Of a stretch of 33,907 nucleotides of DNA, positions 2,145 through 22,271 are shown piece by piece. The translations under genes were made by a program, and so were the position numbers. Source of the DNA: Armatimonadetes bacterium CG06_land_8_20_14_3_00_66_21 (GTDB lineage: Bacteria > Armatimonadota > Abditibacteriia > CG2-30-66-41). The notes under the pieces were generated by a model. The model did no database searches. It was not told the DNA's origin and saw nothing but the letters and a program-made list of their open reading frames with translations. Positions within the stretch are counted from its first letter, which is position 1, and every line of letters begins with the position of its first letter. Location: contig PEVN01000328.1 in NCBI GenBank assembly GCA_002779825.1, positions 1-33,907 on the forward strand. The letters are read 5' to 3'.

Positions 2145-2168
2145 GCCTCCCGGTTGGGGAACGCCCTC

Positions 2169-2414
2169 ATGAAGACACCGAAACGCGCCAACAAACCACC
2201 GGGGCTGGTGGACTGGTCGTGGCTGCGCTGGCGCTGGAGCGGAATGGAGATCCTGATGCTCATCGGAGTCCTGGTTACCCTCGGCGCCATCGCGGTCATG
2301 CTGTGGGGTACCCTCCAGGACTTCAGCGAGCGCGGCCCGGCCGTCGGTGGCGGCACGACCGCTTCAGAAAGCACGGGCAGCGGGGCCGGGGCCGACTCGG
2401 GCGGCGGACAGTGA
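2169..2414 (+). CDS. Small single-pass membrane protein, unknown function
   Basis: This encodes 81 residues from the ATG at 2169; a TTG five codons upstream (2154) is the alternative. The N-terminus is basic (MKTPKRANKPPG), followed by a Trp-rich stretch (VDWSWLRWRW) and one strong membrane helix (ILMLIGVLVTLGAIAVMLW). The tail is low-complexity Gly/Ser/Thr (GGGTTASESTGSGAGADSGGG). It follows the HlyD-like remnant by about 25 bases and is probably part of the same former export operon. I do not recognise a family. Confidence is moderate because the gene is short, but the membrane segment and the codon pattern look real. Confidence 0.5.
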   Translation: MKTPKRANKPPGLVDWSWLRWRWSGMEILMLIGVLVTLGAIAVMLWGTLQDFSERGPAVGGGTTASESTGSGAGADSGGGQ

Positions 2415-2443
2415 GGGGGGTGGGCGTTCGCGGCGGCTCCCTG

Positions 2444-3940
2444 CTACGTCAGCTCGACGAACCGCGCGTATGCCGCGTCCCAATCCTGCCCGGTCTGCGG
2501 CTCGTACGCGGCCAAGTCGAACGAGTCGCGCACGATCTGCCGCGCCTCCGCGATTGAGCCGAGGTGCTCTCGGGCAACCGCTTGCACCAGGATGTTGCCG
2601 ATGGCGGTGGCTTCGACGGGACCGGCCAGGACCCGCCGGCCGGTGCAGTCAGCCGCCAACTGGTTGAGGAGAGCATTCTGACTGCCGCCGCCGACGATGT
2701 GGATGGTGTCGAGGGCGTTGTTCGTGACCTCTTCGAGGCGCTCGACGACCCAGCGGTACTTGAGCGCCAGGCTCTCCAGCGCGGCGCGGACGAGTTGTCC
2801 CTTGGTCTCGGGCACAGGCTGGTCGGTCTTCACGCAGAACTTGCCGATCTGGGCGGGCATGTCGCCGGGCTTGAGGAATAGCTCGTCGTCGGGGTCCAGC
2901 AGCGACCGGAACGGCTCAGCCGCCTCCGCCGCCTGGGTCAAGTCATCGTACGACAGCGACTCACCCTCGCGCTCCCACTGCCGCCGGCTTTCCTGCACCA
3001 GCCAGAGGCCCATGATGTTCTTCAGGAACCGGATCGTCCCGTTGACGCCGCCTTCATTGGTGAAGTTCAGCTCAGCAACCCGGTCGTTGATCAACGGCTT
3101 GTCCAGTTCGACGCCCACCAGTGACCACGTGCCGGAGCTGAGGTAGCAGGCGCCCTTCTCCACCATCGGCACGGCGGCGACGGCGGAGCCGGTGTCGTGG
3201 CAGGCGGGAGCGATGACGGGAACTGCACCCAGCCCGGTCTCGTCCCCGAGGGAAGGCAGCAGGTTGCCGATGACGCTGCCGGAGGGAACCAGGCCCTGCA
3301 GAATGCGCGTAGGGATGCCGAGTTTGTCGCACAACTCCCGCGACCAGTCGCCCAGGCGCGGGTCGTACATCTGGCTCGTCGTGGCGATGCTGAACTCCGT
3401 CGCCTTCTCGCCGGTCAGCAGGAAGTTGAACAGGTCCGGCATCATGAGCATGGTCTCGGCGATCTCGAGCTGCGGAGATTCGCTCAGCACCATGGAGACC
3501 AACTGGAAGAGAGTGTTCAACTGCATGAACTGGATGCCCGTGCGGTCGAAGATCTCCGCCTTGGGCACAAGCCGGCACGCCGCCTCGACTATGCCGTCTG
3601 TCCGGCTGTCGCGGTAGTGGAAGGGGGTCCCCAGCAGCTTGTCCTGGCTGTCCAGCAGACCGAAGTCGACCCCCCAGGTGTCGATCCCGATCCCGTCGAG
3701 CCTACCTCCGCGCGCGGACGCCATGCCTCCGCACTTGTCGGCCGCGTGCGCCAGCGCGGTGCGGATGTTCCCGTACATGCCCAGCACGTTCCAGTGCAGC
3801 GAACCCAGCACGTCAACCGGCCCATTGGCGAACCGGTGTACCTCTTCCAGGCTCAACCGGCCGCCTTCAAGCGTGCCCATAAGCCCGCGGCCGCTCTCGG
3901 CGCCCAAGTCAATCGCGAGATACCTGGTTGCTGCTGACAT
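2444..3940 (-). CDS. rhaB: Rhamnulokinase (L-rhamnulose kinase)
   Basis: This is an FGGY-family sugar kinase of 498 residues, which phosphorylates L-rhamnulose to rhamnulose 1-phosphate in cytoplasmic L-rhamnose breakdown. The N-terminal phosphate loop is AIDLGAESGRG. IDTWGVDFGLLD, GTPFHYRDSR and TSQMYDPR are typical of RhaB. ACHDTGSAVAAVP carries the likely catalytic Asp, and GTWSLVG and IVGGGSQNALLNQ form the C-terminal ATP-binding lobe. The ORF track extends to 4063, but the ATG at 3940 is preferred: it begins MSAATRYLAIDLG and has GGAGG seven bases upstream. No isomerase, aldolase or regulator gene is nearby, so it appears as a single gene with its own promoter (3980-4008). The following secreted beta-helix gene is divergent. 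Confidence 0.93.
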   Translation of the reverse strand: MSAATRYLAIDLGAESGRGLMGTLEGGRLSLEEVHRFANGPVDVLGSLHWNVLGMYGNIRTALAHAADKCGGMASARGGRLDGIGIDTWGVDFGLLDSQDKLLGTPFHYRDSRTDGIVEAACRLVPKAEIFDRTGIQFMQLNTLFQLVSMVLSESPQLEIAETMLMMPDLFNFLLTGEKATEFSIATTSQMYDPRLGDWSRELCDKLGIPTRILQGLVPSGSVIGNLLPSLGDETGLGAVPVIAPACHDTGSAVAAVPMVEKGACYLSSGTWSLVGVELDKPLINDRVAELNFTNEGGVNGTIRFLKNIMGLWLVQESRRQWEREGESLSYDDLTQAAEAAEPFRSLLDPDDELFLKPGDMPAQIGKFCVKTDQPVPETKGQLVRAALESLALKYRWVVERLEEVTNNALDTIHIVGGGSQNALLNQLAADCTGRRVLAGPVEATAIGNILVQAVAREHLGSIAEARQIVRDSFDLAAYEPQTGQDWDAAYARFVELT

Positions 3941-3979
3941 GCTGAATCCTCCGGCAATGCTCCGGTGATGAAGGTTGAG

Positions 3980-4103: not shown

Positions 4104-5639
4104 ATGAACCCCATTTGCCGCCCAAATGAGCGGCACCGCCCCTCCAAAGCTGCTCTGGCGAGGCAGCGTGTGCGCCGTGGTCTGTTGGCGGGAGTGGTCT
4201 TCAGTACGGTCGCCTCGGGGGCAGCCCGACCGGCCACGCCGCCGAGCACGCCCAGCTTCTATGTTGACAGCGCCAATGGGAGCGACGCCAACGACGGCCG
4301 CTCTCGCGACACTGCGTGGAAGACGGTGGCGCCGGTGAACGCGATGGTCTTCCCGCCCGGCAGCCATGTTGTGTTCCGCGCGGGGCAGACGTTCGCCGGC
4401 CCCGTCTCGCTGCACGGTTCGGGCAAACGAACGACCCTCAACGTGGTGGATCGTTACGGGCAAGGACCGAACCCACATGTCGCTATCCCGGCGGGACAGG
4501 GAGCCGTCCTGTCGCTGCTCAACGAAGAGTGCTGGGAGGTGCGGAACCTCGAACTGAGTGGAGGCGCCATCGGGGTCTTCACATACCTCAAGGAGTTCGG
4601 CGTCGCCCACCACTTGCACTTCAAGCACCTCGACATCCACGACGTTCGCGGCGGATTGACGGGCGACGACGGCGGCTTCCTTCTCAAGCGCGAAGGACTG
4701 ACCACGTGGTTCGACGATCTGCTGATCGAGGGGTGCAGTATCAAGCGGGTGGACCGGAACGGAATCCTGCACACGGACTACCCGACGGCGTCCGACCAGC
4801 ACCACAGTACGCACGTGGTGATCCGCGGCAACCACCTCCGCGACATCGGTGGCGACGGCATTTTCATTCTCGGTTGCGATGACGCCCTCATCGAGCGCAA
4901 CGTCTTGCGGTACGCCCACCAGCGCGTCGGCCGGCGGCCGGGAGAGCGCGCCTGCGCCGGTATCTGGCCGCACCGCTGCAACCGGACGATCATCCAACTC
5001 AACGAGGTCAGCCACACCGCGGTGGGTGGGGTCACGGTGTGGGACAGTGAAGCCTTTGACGACGACAACAGTTGCCGTGACACCGTCTTCCAGTACAACT
5101 ACAGCCACGACAACGCCGGCGGATTCCTTCTCCTCTGCGGCGGCGCGAAGGGCACGCTCGTCCGCTACAACGTCAGCCAGAACGACGCCGTCGCCACTTT
5201 CAGCCTGGAGGGCGACGGTGTCGAGGACGTCAGCATCTACAACAACGTCTTCTACGTCGGTCCCGACCTGACTGTGAACATGACCCGCAATACCTTCGGA
5301 CACCCCCGCAACGTCCGGTACTTCAACAACCTCTTCTACGCAGAAGGCACGATGACGTACAACCTCGGCGCGGTCGCAGAGACTGCCTTCGAGGACAATG
5401 CCTTCTTTGGAAACCACCCGGGCCGCCCGGCCGAGGCCCACGCTGTGACGAGCGATCCGCTGCTGGTCCGCCCGGGCAGCGGGGGGAACGGCGCGGCCAC
5501 GGCAGCCGGCTACAAACTCAAGCCCGGGTCCCCCTGTCGCAACGCCGGGAAGGCCGTCGCCAACAATGGCGGCCGGGACTTCTGGGGCAATCGGGTGCTA
5601 CGCGACGGGCCGCCCTCGATTGGCGCCCACAACCCGTGA
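4104..5639 (+). CDS. Secreted right-handed parallel beta-helix protein
   Basis: This encodes 511 residues from the ATG at 4104; the longer ORF from 3975 is out-of-gene extension. An Arg-rich N-terminus and hydrophobic stretch (GLLAGVVFSTVASGAA) form a likely export signal. The mature start FYVDSANGSDANDG...TAWKT is the usual entry to this family. The rest is repeated Asn/Gly/Asp-rich coils (IRGNHLRDIGGDGIF, IERNVLRYAHQRV, IYNNVFYVG, YFNNLFYAEG), each a turn of a beta-solenoid. The C-terminus has a typical closing stretch (GSPCRNAGK, then DFWGN and PSIGAHNP). Such proteins are often polysaccharide lyases or binding proteins, but I cannot assign a substrate or catalytic residues. A short hairpin after the stop (5640-5659) has no T-run. 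Confidence 0.85.
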   Translation: MNPICRPNERHRPSKAALARQRVRRGLLAGVVFSTVASGAARPATPPSTPSFYVDSANGSDANDGRSRDTAWKTVAPVNAMVFPPGSHVVFRAGQTFAGPVSLHGSGKRTTLNVVDRYGQGPNPHVAIPAGQGAVLSLLNEECWEVRNLELSGGAIGVFTYLKEFGVAHHLHFKHLDIHDVRGGLTGDDGGFLLKREGLTTWFDDLLIEGCSIKRVDRNGILHTDYPTASDQHHSTHVVIRGNHLRDIGGDGIFILGCDDALIERNVLRYAHQRVGRRPGERACAGIWPHRCNRTIIQLNEVSHTAVGGVTVWDSEAFDDDNSCRDTVFQYNYSHDNAGGFLLLCGGAKGTLVRYNVSQNDAVATFSLEGDGVEDVSIYNNVFYVGPDLTVNMTRNTFGHPRNVRYFNNLFYAEGTMTYNLGAVAETAFEDNAFFGNHPGRPAEAHAVTSDPLLVRPGSGGNGAATAAGYKLKPGSPCRNAGKAVANNGGRDFWGNRVLRDGPPSIGAHNP

Positions 5640-20161: not shown

Positions 20162-20620
20162 CTACGCAAGGGAGAGCCCCGTCGCCAACTCGCGCGCCGA
20201 CTGCGAGCGGCGGAAGCGGTGCAGCGCCACTCGCTCGGCGTCGGTCTTCGCCTCCCGCGTGAACAGCTCCTTCTCCAGCGCGGACCGCAGGGTCTCCTGC
20301 AGCGTGCCCAGCCAGGCCCGGGAGAGCACCTCTTCGTAGTGCTGTGCCGCATCGGGCAATGCCTCGAGGGGGTCGGCTCGCCCCTCCGCGTCCGCCTTCT
20401 GGCCGTCCAGCGGCTTGGGCTCGTAGCTCTCGTGGGCCAGGAAGTTGCGGATTCGGTTGGCGGAGGACTTCAGGAGATACGCCTCGTCCTGGATCCCGGT
20501 CTGCAGCAGCTCCCAGACCCGCAGGCGGCCCTCCGAGTAGGCGTCTTCGACCAAAGACGGGGAGAATCGGCAGAGCCGTTGTGCCTGGCGGCGGACGTAC
20601 GGGGAGAGTTCGATGAGCAT
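20162..20620 (-). CDS. ECF-like RNA polymerase sigma factor
   Basis: This encodes 152 residues from the ATG at 20620, which has AGGAGG seven bases upstream; the longer track ORF is rejected. Residues 15-65 (FSPSLVEDAYSEGRLRVWELLQTG, then AYLLKSSANRIRNFLAHE) resemble sigma70 region 2. An acidic/Pro linker and a C-terminal helical part (LQETLRSALEKELF, TDAERVALHRFRRSQSARELATG) may be a degenerate region 4. I see no anti-sigma factor; the next gene is the UVR-motif protein. Its transcript appears to start at the promoter at 20971-20999 and to pass through a SAM-clan riboswitch and terminator, a surprising form of control for a sigma factor. Family assignment is moderate. Confidence 0.6.
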   Translation of the reverse strand: MLIELSPYVRRQAQRLCRFSPSLVEDAYSEGRLRVWELLQTGIQDEAYLLKSSANRIRNFLAHESYEPKPLDGQKADAEGRADPLEALPDAAQHYEEVLSRAWLGTLQETLRSALEKELFTREAKTDAERVALHRFRRSQSARELATGLSLA

Positions 20621-20792
20621 GACCAGCCTCCTATGGTTCCCGCAGGCACCGTGGCACCACGGGTGGGCATTCGCACTGCCACAGGCGGGTTCCGCCGGTG
20701 GGTTTGCGGGCAGGAGCGTCGGGCCCAATCCCTTGTGGCACGCCTGGCGTGCTCAGCATCTCCTGCGCTCGTCATAGGTCCCAGAACGACAA

Positions 20793-20817
20793 ACGCCTCC
20801 GCGGGCGGCGGAGGCGT
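20793..20817 (-). terminator. Terminator following the riboswitch
   Basis: On the minus strand there is a perfect 10-bp GC-rich stem (ACGCCTCCGC, loop CGCCC, GCGGAGGCGT) followed by TTGTCGTT. It lies 16 bases after the aptamer P1 stem, the normal expression-platform position. Confidence 0.7.
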
Positions 20818-20833
20818 CCAAACAACGCATTCG

Positions 20834-20939
20834 CTCATCCTCGCGGAGATCCGTCTCGTGGGTGTAGCACCTTTCCGGAGCGTTGGCTCCGGGAGGTTGC
20901 CGTGCACCTCGCCACGCCGATTAGTACACTCGCGATGAG
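20834..20939 (-). promoter_or_regulatory. SAM-clan (S-box-like) riboswitch aptamer
   Basis: Read on the minus strand, the parts in order are: P1 CUCAUC/GAUGAG; J1/2 GCGA; P2 GUGUAC/GUGCAC (one G-U pair) with a 16-nt loop containing CGUGG; the core GGCAACC; P3 CCGGAGC-CAAC-GCUCCGG; the core AAAGGUGCUACACC; and P4 GAGA/UCUC. CGUGG in the P2 loop can pair with CCACG after P3, matching the pseudoknot of the SAM-I/SAM-IV clan. GGCAACC and GGUGCUA are the hallmark core blocks of this clan. The J1/2-P2 entry (GAGUG) resembles SAM-IV more than classical SAM-I. The same blocks do not occur on the plus strand. Confidence 0.75.
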
Positions 20940-20970
20940 ACCTAAGCGCCGGTTCATTACCGACACGCAC

Positions 20971-20999
20971 AGTGTACCATCGCGCCGACGGCTCGTCAA
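20971..20999 (-). promoter_or_regulatory. Predicted promoter of the riboswitch/sigma-factor transcript
   Basis: On the minus strand, TTGACG and TACACT are separated by exactly 17 bases. The predicted start is about 25 bases upstream of the aptamer. Confidence 0.6.
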
Positions 21000-21016: not shown

Positions 21017-21045
21017 TTGACGGGTGCGCTCGGCACTCCTACAAT
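21017..21045 (+). promoter_or_regulatory. Predicted promoter of the transsulfuration enzyme
   Basis: TTGACG and TACAAT are separated by exactly 17 bases (five of six matches in each box), giving a leader of about 38 bases. It is divergent from the riboswitch promoter 18 bases away. Confidence 0.65.
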
Positions 21046-21089
21046 GGCGACAGAGCTTGCCAGACCCCGCAGACTGGACCACCGCACCT

Positions 21090-22271
21090 ATGCACACGCC
21101 CCCCAACCTCCACACGATGGCGATCCACGCGGGCCAGGAACCGGAACCTGGCACCGGCGCCACGGCGACCCCGATCTACCAGACAGCATCCTTCGCCTTC
21201 CGCGACGCAAAGCACGCCGAGGACGCCTTCGCAGACGGCCGGGACCAGTACGTCTACACCCGCTGGGGCAACCCGACAACAGCGGCCTTCGAGCAGAAAC
21301 TCGCCGCGCTGGAAGGGGCCGAAGCAGCGCTGGCCACGGCCTCCGGCATGGCAGCCGTGTCCACCGCTGTTCTCTCCCAGGTCAAGCACGGCGATCACGC
21401 CATCTGCGCCCGAAATGTCTACTCCGCGTCGTTCACGCTGTTCTACCGCCGGCTCCCGACCATGGGCGTGGAGGTCTCGCTGGTGGACGGCACCGACGCG
21501 GCGGCGTTCGCTGCCGCCGTGCGCCCCAACACGAGACTGATCTACGCGGAGACACCGGGCAACCCAACGCTCCAGCTAACGGATCTGACCGCAGTCGGCG
21601 AGTTGGCGCACCGGGCGGGCGCGGTGCTGCTGGTGGACAACACCTTCGCCACACCGCTCAACCAGCGGCCGTTGGCCTTCGGCGCGACTGCCGTCCTCCA
21701 CAGCACGACCAAGTACCTGGGGGGGCATGGCGACTTGATCGGCGGGGCCATTGCCGGTTCGCACGCGTTTGTCGACTCGCTGTGGTCAACGCAGATCGAA
21801 CTGGGCGGCACGCCGAGCCCGTTCAACGCATTCCTGGGCTTGCGGGGCATGCAGACGTTCCCGCTCCGCATGGAGCGGCACAACCGCAACGCCCAATTGG
21901 TCGCGGAGGCTCTGGAGGCTACCCCCGAAGTTGCGTGGGTGGCCTACCCGGGACTGCCGAGCCACCCCCAGCACGAACTCGCTGCTCGACAGATGACGGG
22001 GTTCGGCGGGATGGTCTGTTTCGAACTCGCCGGCGGTCTGGACGCCGGCCGCAAACTGATCGACGGCGTCCAGCTCTGCACCCGGGCTGTCAGCCTCGGC
22101 GACGTGAAGACGCTGCTCTGCCATCCCGCTTCCTCGACCCATTTCCACGTTCCGGAGTCGGCCCGCCGGGAAGCCGGCATCACGGACGGTCTCGTGCGGC
22201 TGTCTGTCGGCCTGGAAGACCCGGAGGACATTCTCGCCGACCTTCGGCAAGCGCTGTTACGCAGGCGGTGA
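21090..22271 (+). CDS. PLP-dependent Cys/Met metabolism enzyme (cystathionine gamma-synthase/lyase type)
   Basis: This encodes 393 residues from the ATG at 21090; the track start at 21024 lies within the promoter. The family signatures are ATPIYQTASFAF, QYVYTRWGNPTTAAFE, ALATASGMAAV, ETPGNPTLQ and VDNTFATP. The PLP lysine is in STTKYLGGHGDLIGG, and STHFHVPESARREAGI lies near the C-terminus. The position of the methionine gamma-lyase Cys is not Cys here (NVYSASFTLF), so cystathionine gamma-synthase, O-acetylhomoserine sulfhydrylase or cystathionine lyase activity is more likely. The sequence cannot decide between them. It has its own promoter with a short leader that is too small for a riboswitch. 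Confidence 0.88.
   Translation: MHTPPNLHTMAIHAGQEPEPGTGATATPIYQTASFAFRDAKHAEDAFADGRDQYVYTRWGNPTTAAFEQKLAALEGAEAALATASGMAAVSTAVLSQVKHGDHAICARNVYSASFTLFYRRLPTMGVEVSLVDGTDAAAFAAAVRPNTRLIYAETPGNPTLQLTDLTAVGELAHRAGAVLLVDNTFATPLNQRPLAFGATAVLHSTTKYLGGHGDLIGGAIAGSHAFVDSLWSTQIELGGTPSPFNAFLGLRGMQTFPLRMERHNRNAQLVAEALEATPEVAWVAYPGLPSHPQHELAARQMTGFGGMVCFELAGGLDAGRKLIDGVQLCTRAVSLGDVKTLLCHPASSTHFHVPESARREAGITDGLVRLSVGLEDPEDILADLRQALLRRR

Follow-up and report, generated by a model that had tools for sequence, protein, structure and literature searches.

As a rule, a riboswitch controls in cis the genes of a single pathway. Within the SAM clan, SAM-IV (RF00634) has no P4 and carries P5 and PK-2 after P1. SAM-I/IV (RF01725) has no PK-1, an undivided P2 and a PK-2 (PMC6890682), and in SAM-I (RF00162) the residues within 5 Å of SAM are 6-8, 11-12, 44-47, 57-59 and 87 (PMC6890682). 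Tandem arrangements are also described, including 164 double SAM-I riboswitches, which have been read as pseudo-cooperative, and bi-mechanism tandems of SAM-II and SAM-V, in which the first aptamer controls termination and the second controls access to the Shine-Dalgarno (SD) sequence of sulphur-metabolism or SAM-related genes (PMC9481103). SAM-I variants that bind spermidine are reported to be changed in J1/2 and in the P3 internal loop (PMC10853860).

Here we describe a minus-strand leader of the window (the whole 33,907-nt stretch of DNA analyzed, from the Armatimonadota genome G000), in which a promoter is followed by a SAM-clan aptamer (aptamer 1), a 10-bp hairpin, a second SAM-clan aptamer (aptamer 2), an SD sequence and the gene of a sigma factor (Table 1). 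Judging from sequence, this leader is very probably a bi-mechanism tandem SAM-clan riboswitch that switches off an ECF-type sigma gene when SAM is plentiful. An earlier note on this DNA had recognized the promoter, one SAM-clan aptamer with P1-P4, core and pseudoknot, a 10-bp terminator, an ECF-like sigma gene and a UVR-motif protein behind it, all of which are borne out here, with the qualification that the hairpin has a weak tail; the second aptamer and the tandem transcription-plus-translation layout were absent from that note.

Table 1 Features of the sigma leader and its surroundings in the window (L005 and L010, which lie on one contig, are loci of the relative G090; L006 is a locus of the relative G255)
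Feature	Position	Strand	Basis and remarks
Promoter, sigma-70-type, extended -10	20999-20971	-	TTGACG-17-TACACT, TG ahead of the -10; counterparts in L005/L010 and L006
SAM-clan aptamer 1	20941-20832	-	Covariance matches and helix pairing
Terminator-like hairpin, 10 bp	20817-20785 including tail (stem-loop 20817-20793)	-	ACGCCTCCGC/GCGGAGGCGT, loop CGCCC, T tail TTGTCGTT
SAM-clan aptamer 2 (tentative on its own sequence)	20780-20628	-	RF00162 match, core descriptor, counterparts L005:1397-1491 and L006:2067-1932
Shine-Dalgarno AGGAGG	20632-20627	-	Its initial AGG closes the 3' strand of aptamer 2 P1
ECF-like sigma gene, 152 aa, ATG at 20620	20620-20162	-	Sigma70_r2 in relatives and Foldseek
247-aa protein, UVR motif at C-terminus	20109-19366	-	52 nt 3' of the sigma gene
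Cys/Met-metabolism PLP enzyme (PF01053), divergent	21078-22271	+	Own housekeeping-type promoter TTGACG-17-TACAAT at 21017-21045; context only

The promoter lies 30 nt ahead of aptamer 1, and shuffles of the 700-nt stretch contain a mean of 0.0 sigma-70-type sites. An Rfam scan of the window at the gathering threshold returns no match, since aptamer 1 scores 27.9 bits compared with a gathering score of 44.4 for RF00162. With a relaxed threshold across all 4227 Rfam families, the covariance-model search that the earlier note had proposed does match aptamer 1 to RF00162, the top match in the leader, at that sub-gathering score, with an E-value of 4e-4. Nowhere else in the 8.3-Mb genome does RF00162 match as well as at aptamer 1 (E 0.0014); two further places there (17.1 and 15.2 bits) were dropped, as by eye they showed no convincing SAM core. 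We additionally used a model (R2) with a manually supplied structure, made from 17 SAM aptamers that come from other members of the phylum and exclude the three sigma loci; against it, aptamer 1 scores 28.6 bits (E 1e-5, filters off).

All helices of aptamer 1 pair, namely P1 (CUCAUC/GAUGAG, 20939-20934/20839-20834), P2a (GUGUAC/GUGCAC, 20929-20924/20907-20902), P2b (20920-20918/20911-20909), P3 (GGC AA CCU .. AGG U GCU, starting at 20901), PK-1 (GUGG/CCAC, 20915-20912/20861-20858) and a possible P4 (20857-20854/20849-20846). The six-nucleotide kink-turn of SAM-I is missing from P2, where UAA stands opposite G. In this aptamer 1 resembles SAM-IV, as the earlier note had said of the P2 entry, but it has a possible P4. 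Single-sequence folding of the region is not exceptional (z -1.75).

Taken alone, aptamer 2 is not significant against RF00162 (17.8 bits, E 0.33 across 4227 families), and its identification in the window draws largely on the relatives. Its P1 pairs CCTATG (20778-20773) with CATAGG (20635-20630), and the 3' strand runs on as CATAGGAGG, so that the sigma SD starts inside P1; the start codon is 6 nt beyond the SD, and both SD and start codon are found no more than 15 nt after P1. A hairpin is inserted in P2a (20766-20760/20716-20710), P2b pairs GGG (20732-20730) with CCC (20723-20721), PK-1 pairs UGGG (20727-20724) with CCCA (20667-20664), and in P3 a 3x3 internal loop (AAC/CAG) replaces the 2x1 loop. 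Unconstrained single-strand folding yields P1, P2 and P3, as well as a hairpin in the P4 position. On the window's minus strand, a clan-core descriptor (P1 with AU, J1/2 GAG, P3 with CAA/UG) finds only the two aptamers, compared with 0.42 matches per 33.9-kb strand in shuffled windows, a chance figure that is a guide only because the descriptor was written with the aptamer sequences in view; the hand-drawn helices were likewise picked with the sequences in view.

Using a protein-sequence search, we found the sigma gene clearly in 3 of 291 Armatimonadota genomes, those of the window (G000), of a candidate division WS1 bacterium (G090, 38% protein identity to the window's sigma) and of a Candidatus Zipacnadia bacterium of the Armatimonadota (G255, 45% identity; names from public records). 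The three carriers are uncultured, distantly related bacteria, and we found no relatives of the protein in phages, plasmids or viral contigs. The G090 and G255 genes were located by protein alone, and each then showed a pair of SAM-clan aptamers ahead of it in the same orientation, with promoter, aptamer 1, terminator, aptamer 2, SD and sigma gene in the same order in all three lineages. In G090, the promoter TTGACA-16-TATAAT stands ahead of aptamers at L005:1238-1346 and 1397-1491 (RF00162 27.2 and 27.0 bits), which are directly upstream of sigma and are separated by an 11-bp terminator; the SD arises where GATAGG, the 3' strand of aptamer 2 P1, is followed by AGG. In G255, the promoter TTGATC-17-TATACT is followed by aptamer 1 at L006:2900-2795 (model R2: 50.4 bits, E 1.4e-11), by two terminators and by aptamer 2, where GATAAGGAG comprises the P1 3' strand and the SD; the lone Rfam match with E < 10 in the 216 nt searched for this second aptamer is SAM-I/IV, at 17.1 bits. 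The merging of aptamer 2 P1 with the SD is common to the three genomes.

An array of palindromic units (AACCACGGAGACACCGAG.., 109-132-nt spacing) occupies L006:2110-2740 within the sigma leader of G255, between the terminators and aptamer 2, and accounts for the distance of ~880 nt from aptamer 1 to the gene.

Against Pfam Sigma70_r2 (PF04542) the window's sigma scores 18.2 bits, under the cut-off of 24, while both relatives pass. We predicted its fold from the three sequences, which gives a thin model (pLDDT 74, pTM 0.43) whose top Foldseek matches are ECF sigma factors of M. tuberculosis and E. coli, with probabilities of 0.96-1.00 for the best and E-values of only 0.003-0.04. Region 2 superposes at 2.0 Å over the 65 residues 1-65. 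Pfam finds no match to sigma-70 region 4 in the window protein, and the predicted helices 91-147 of this thin model align with ECF sigma factors as part of the whole fold. These predictions point to an ECF-like sigma factor with region 2 and a short, putative region-4 part. The UVR-motif protein downstream is possibly co-transcribed with sigma in the window; it was not seen adjoining sigma in G090 or G255.

We consider it unlikely that the true target is a gene for methionine or SAM synthesis in the same transcription unit, which was lost in the window and left sigma behind as a passenger, a deletion that the earlier note had also raised. Such a reading would suit G090, where sigma, NDK and an archaeal-type SAM synthetase (PF01941) follow one another on one strand, so that sigma there might be a co-regulated passenger, and it would suit the rest of the phylum, where ordinary SAM riboswitches directly precede metK, or precede Cys/Met PLP-enzyme-like genes or an archaeal-type SAM synthetase (genes named by eye from their translations). 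However, sigma is the first gene behind the aptamers in all three genomes, including the two relatives, a synteny comparison for which the earlier note had called; no methionine gene lies between aptamers and sigma in any of them, and in G255 the gene after sigma is convergent, leaving sigma alone behind the aptamers. Because the aptamers adjoin sigma in every relative, and the second overlaps sigma's own SD, the deletion of a methionine gene is disfavored.

The sigma gene of G090 is additionally flanked by two NDK paralogues (L010:1546-2433 and 4520-5326), one on either side, each with a C-terminal extension.

All three genomes have an ordinary metK, and the divergent PF01053 gene of the window is the only one found in its genome. 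In none of the three genomes did the metK, MTHFR or PF01053 loci yield a SAM aptamer, with only a short stretch covered upstream of metK in G000. With model R2, the sigma leader is the only significant SAM-clan match genome-wide in G000 and G255, a result that is only suggestive as this search scores 150 candidates per genome and missed the known aptamers of G090; absence is likewise weak evidence in the RF00162 and RF01725 searches across the whole G090 and G255 genomes, whose candidate filter passed over real aptamers. Since the sigma leader is the only significant match in these two genomes and metK was found without an aptamer, we tentatively suggest a SAM-sensing relay, in which, in the carrier lineages, a double riboswitch on an ECF sigma factor would replace separate riboswitches on methionine genes, and sigma would carry the low-SAM signal to a regulon.

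SAM-clan RNAs elsewhere in the phylum include further unusual cases. Two genomes of one Armatimonadota genus (G095 and G112) have a SAM-I riboswitch, scoring 41 and 50.6 bits, 7 nt 5' of an SNF2-type helicase gene (PF00176), an unusual target for a SAM riboswitch (L054:2046-2152 and 2160-3953 on the plus strand; L055 on the minus strand), with another SAM-I riboswitch ~850 bp away that precedes a small gene without assigned function. We also observed SAM-clan-like RNAs of only 66-86 nt (L044:1763-1828 and L045:1535-1620 on the minus strand, L047:1495-1574 on the plus strand; RF00162 22-25 bits), which show P1, J1/2 AGAGCGG, a tiny P2 and GGCAACC/GGUGCC, and which precede short genes without assigned function.

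Across the six aptamers of the three sigma loci, A6, U7, G11, A12, C44, A45, U57 and G58 are conserved throughout, as are PK-1 and a divided P2. Position 8 of the window's aptamer 2 is a G with a C partner, and A46 is replaced by G in aptamer 1 of G255, which has a SAM-I-like kink-turn (GGA/UGUGAA). The 3x3 P3 loop (A45-AAC or AGA / CAG-U57), located beside the adenine-binding site, is found in aptamer 2 of the window and of G090, while aptamer 2 of G255 has the normal 2x1 loop. The earlier note had considered a variant class, and the periphery does deviate, as the window's aptamer 1 has no kink-turn and its aptamer 2 has a larger P3 loop, but the core that contacts SAM is retained.

This conservation also bears on whether either aptamer or both, with aptamer 2 and its 3x3 P3 loop as the likeliest candidate, switched ligand in the manner of the spermidine-binding SAM-I variants, which we regard as quite improbable. 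The 3x3 loops that stand in place of 2x1 loops in the window and G090 would be in keeping with such a switch, given the altered J1/2 and P3 internal loop reported for the spermidine variants (PMC10853860). On the other hand, G11, A6/U7, C44, A45, U57 and G58 are present in all six aptamers, the normal loop persists in G255, and the controlled gene is not polyamine-related.

The A46-to-G change also occurs in above-cut-off SAM-I aptamers with a GGCAGCC core from phylum family f5 (L049:2989-3099, L050:2091-2201, L051:1833-1943 and L052:1978-2089), some of which precede Cys/Met PLP-enzyme-like genes.

In all six aptamers the P2b loop pairs with J3/4 (GUGG/CCAC, CGCC/GGCG, CCCA/UGGG, UGGG/CCCA, CGUGA/UCACG and AACUC/GAGUU). 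With the borders of loop and J3/4 set by hand, the true partners form 26 bp in total, compared with a mean of 16.3 for swapped partners, a total reached by 2 of 720 permutations, the true pairing included, and by 5 of 20000 shuffles; a MAFFT alignment of the six aptamers, which is not structure-aware, was left out of the counts. That the aptamers are decayed or chance RNA which binds nothing, in a leader that is merely a long GC-rich untranslated region, is very improbable: the sub-threshold Rfam scores and unexceptional folding z-score of the aptamer 1 region would allow it, but six elements stand in the same order in three lineages, the pseudoknots are complementary though their sequences differ, and aptamer 1 of G255 reaches an E-value of 1.4e-11.

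The window's hairpin is absent from the terminator-scan listing because of its poor T run, and both relatives have better terminators than the window's at the equivalent position. In G090, the P1 3' strand of aptamer 1, GAAGAUG, is complementary to CAUCUUC of the terminator, and the resulting antiterminator and the combination of P1 and terminator are mutually exclusive, with the antiterminator fold 6 kcal/mol higher. For the window's aptamer 1 region, the most stable predicted fold (-72.1 kcal/mol) has the P1 3' strand paired to the terminator region, and the alternative with P1 and terminator lies 3 kcal/mol higher (-69.1 kcal/mol, pseudoknot not counted), a difference small enough for a bound ligand to overcome. 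Ensemble predictions for G090 and G255 have most of the SD region paired, and the prediction for the window is mixed because other pairings compete.

We infer from these elements that SAM would be the ligand of both aptamers and that its effect would be OFF. RNA polymerase with the housekeeping sigma factor would start a few bases past 20971, and SAM bound to aptamer 1 would hold P1 together, barring its 3' strand from the alternative pairing and allowing the hairpin at 20817-20793 to terminate transcription. Transcripts that escape would carry aptamer 2, where SAM would hold a P1 that is continuous with the SD, thereby blocking translation of sigma. At low SAM, sigma would be made and would send RNA polymerase to its own promoters.

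If true, a riboswitch on a sigma factor would make a local metabolite sensor control many promoters, and the locus would offer a concrete system for the broadcast of SAM status, in which SAM-clan aptamers apparently gate the regulator at the levels of both transcription and translation. Such elements escape Rfam at its default thresholds, as none of the six aptamers at the three sigma loci reaches the gathering score. A literature search with little coverage of subscription journals found no report of a SAM riboswitch ahead of a sigma-factor gene, and, as far as checked, the parts are of known kinds while the target and the arrangement are new.

Compared with known systems, the sigma protein resembles ECF factors such as SigL, SigH and SigE in its predicted fold and, in the relatives, in a Sigma70_r2 match above the cut-off, and differs in its length of only 152 aa, its short region-4-like end and the lack of a Pfam region 4 match. 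The aptamers share with SAM-I (RF00162) P1, P2a/P2b, the C44-A45-A46/U57-G58 of P3, G11 of J1/2, PK-1, P4 (in aptamer 1) and a terminator as platform. As regards membership in RF00162, aptamer 1 gives a significant covariance match, and the contact nucleotides and PK-1 are in place, while the window aptamers stay under the gathering score, aptamer 1 has no kink-turn, aptamer 2 has the hairpin inserted in P2 and the 3x3 P3 loop, and the gene behind them encodes a sigma factor. SAM-I/IV (RF01725) shares the clan core and is the top Rfam name for aptamer 2 of G255, but the PK-1 and divided P2 seen here set the aptamers apart from it. As in SAM-IV, aptamer 1 of the window has no SAM-I kink-turn, but it has a possible P4, and RF00634 is absent from the window's match listing, in which clan overlaps are merged. 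The spermidine riboswitch likewise combines a SAM-I fold with P3-loop changes, but its J1/2 is reported to be changed as well (PMC10853860), whereas G11 and A12 of J1/2 are intact here. Tandem SAM-I riboswitches also have two SAM-I-like aptamers per leader; in the present case the second is positioned to act at the SD, and a sigma-factor gene follows. Finally, the layout of a terminator aptamer followed by an SD aptamer, as read from sequence in the window, L005 and L006, is that of the SAM-II/SAM-V bi-mechanism tandems, which are built from unrelated aptamer folds, while the target here is a sigma factor.
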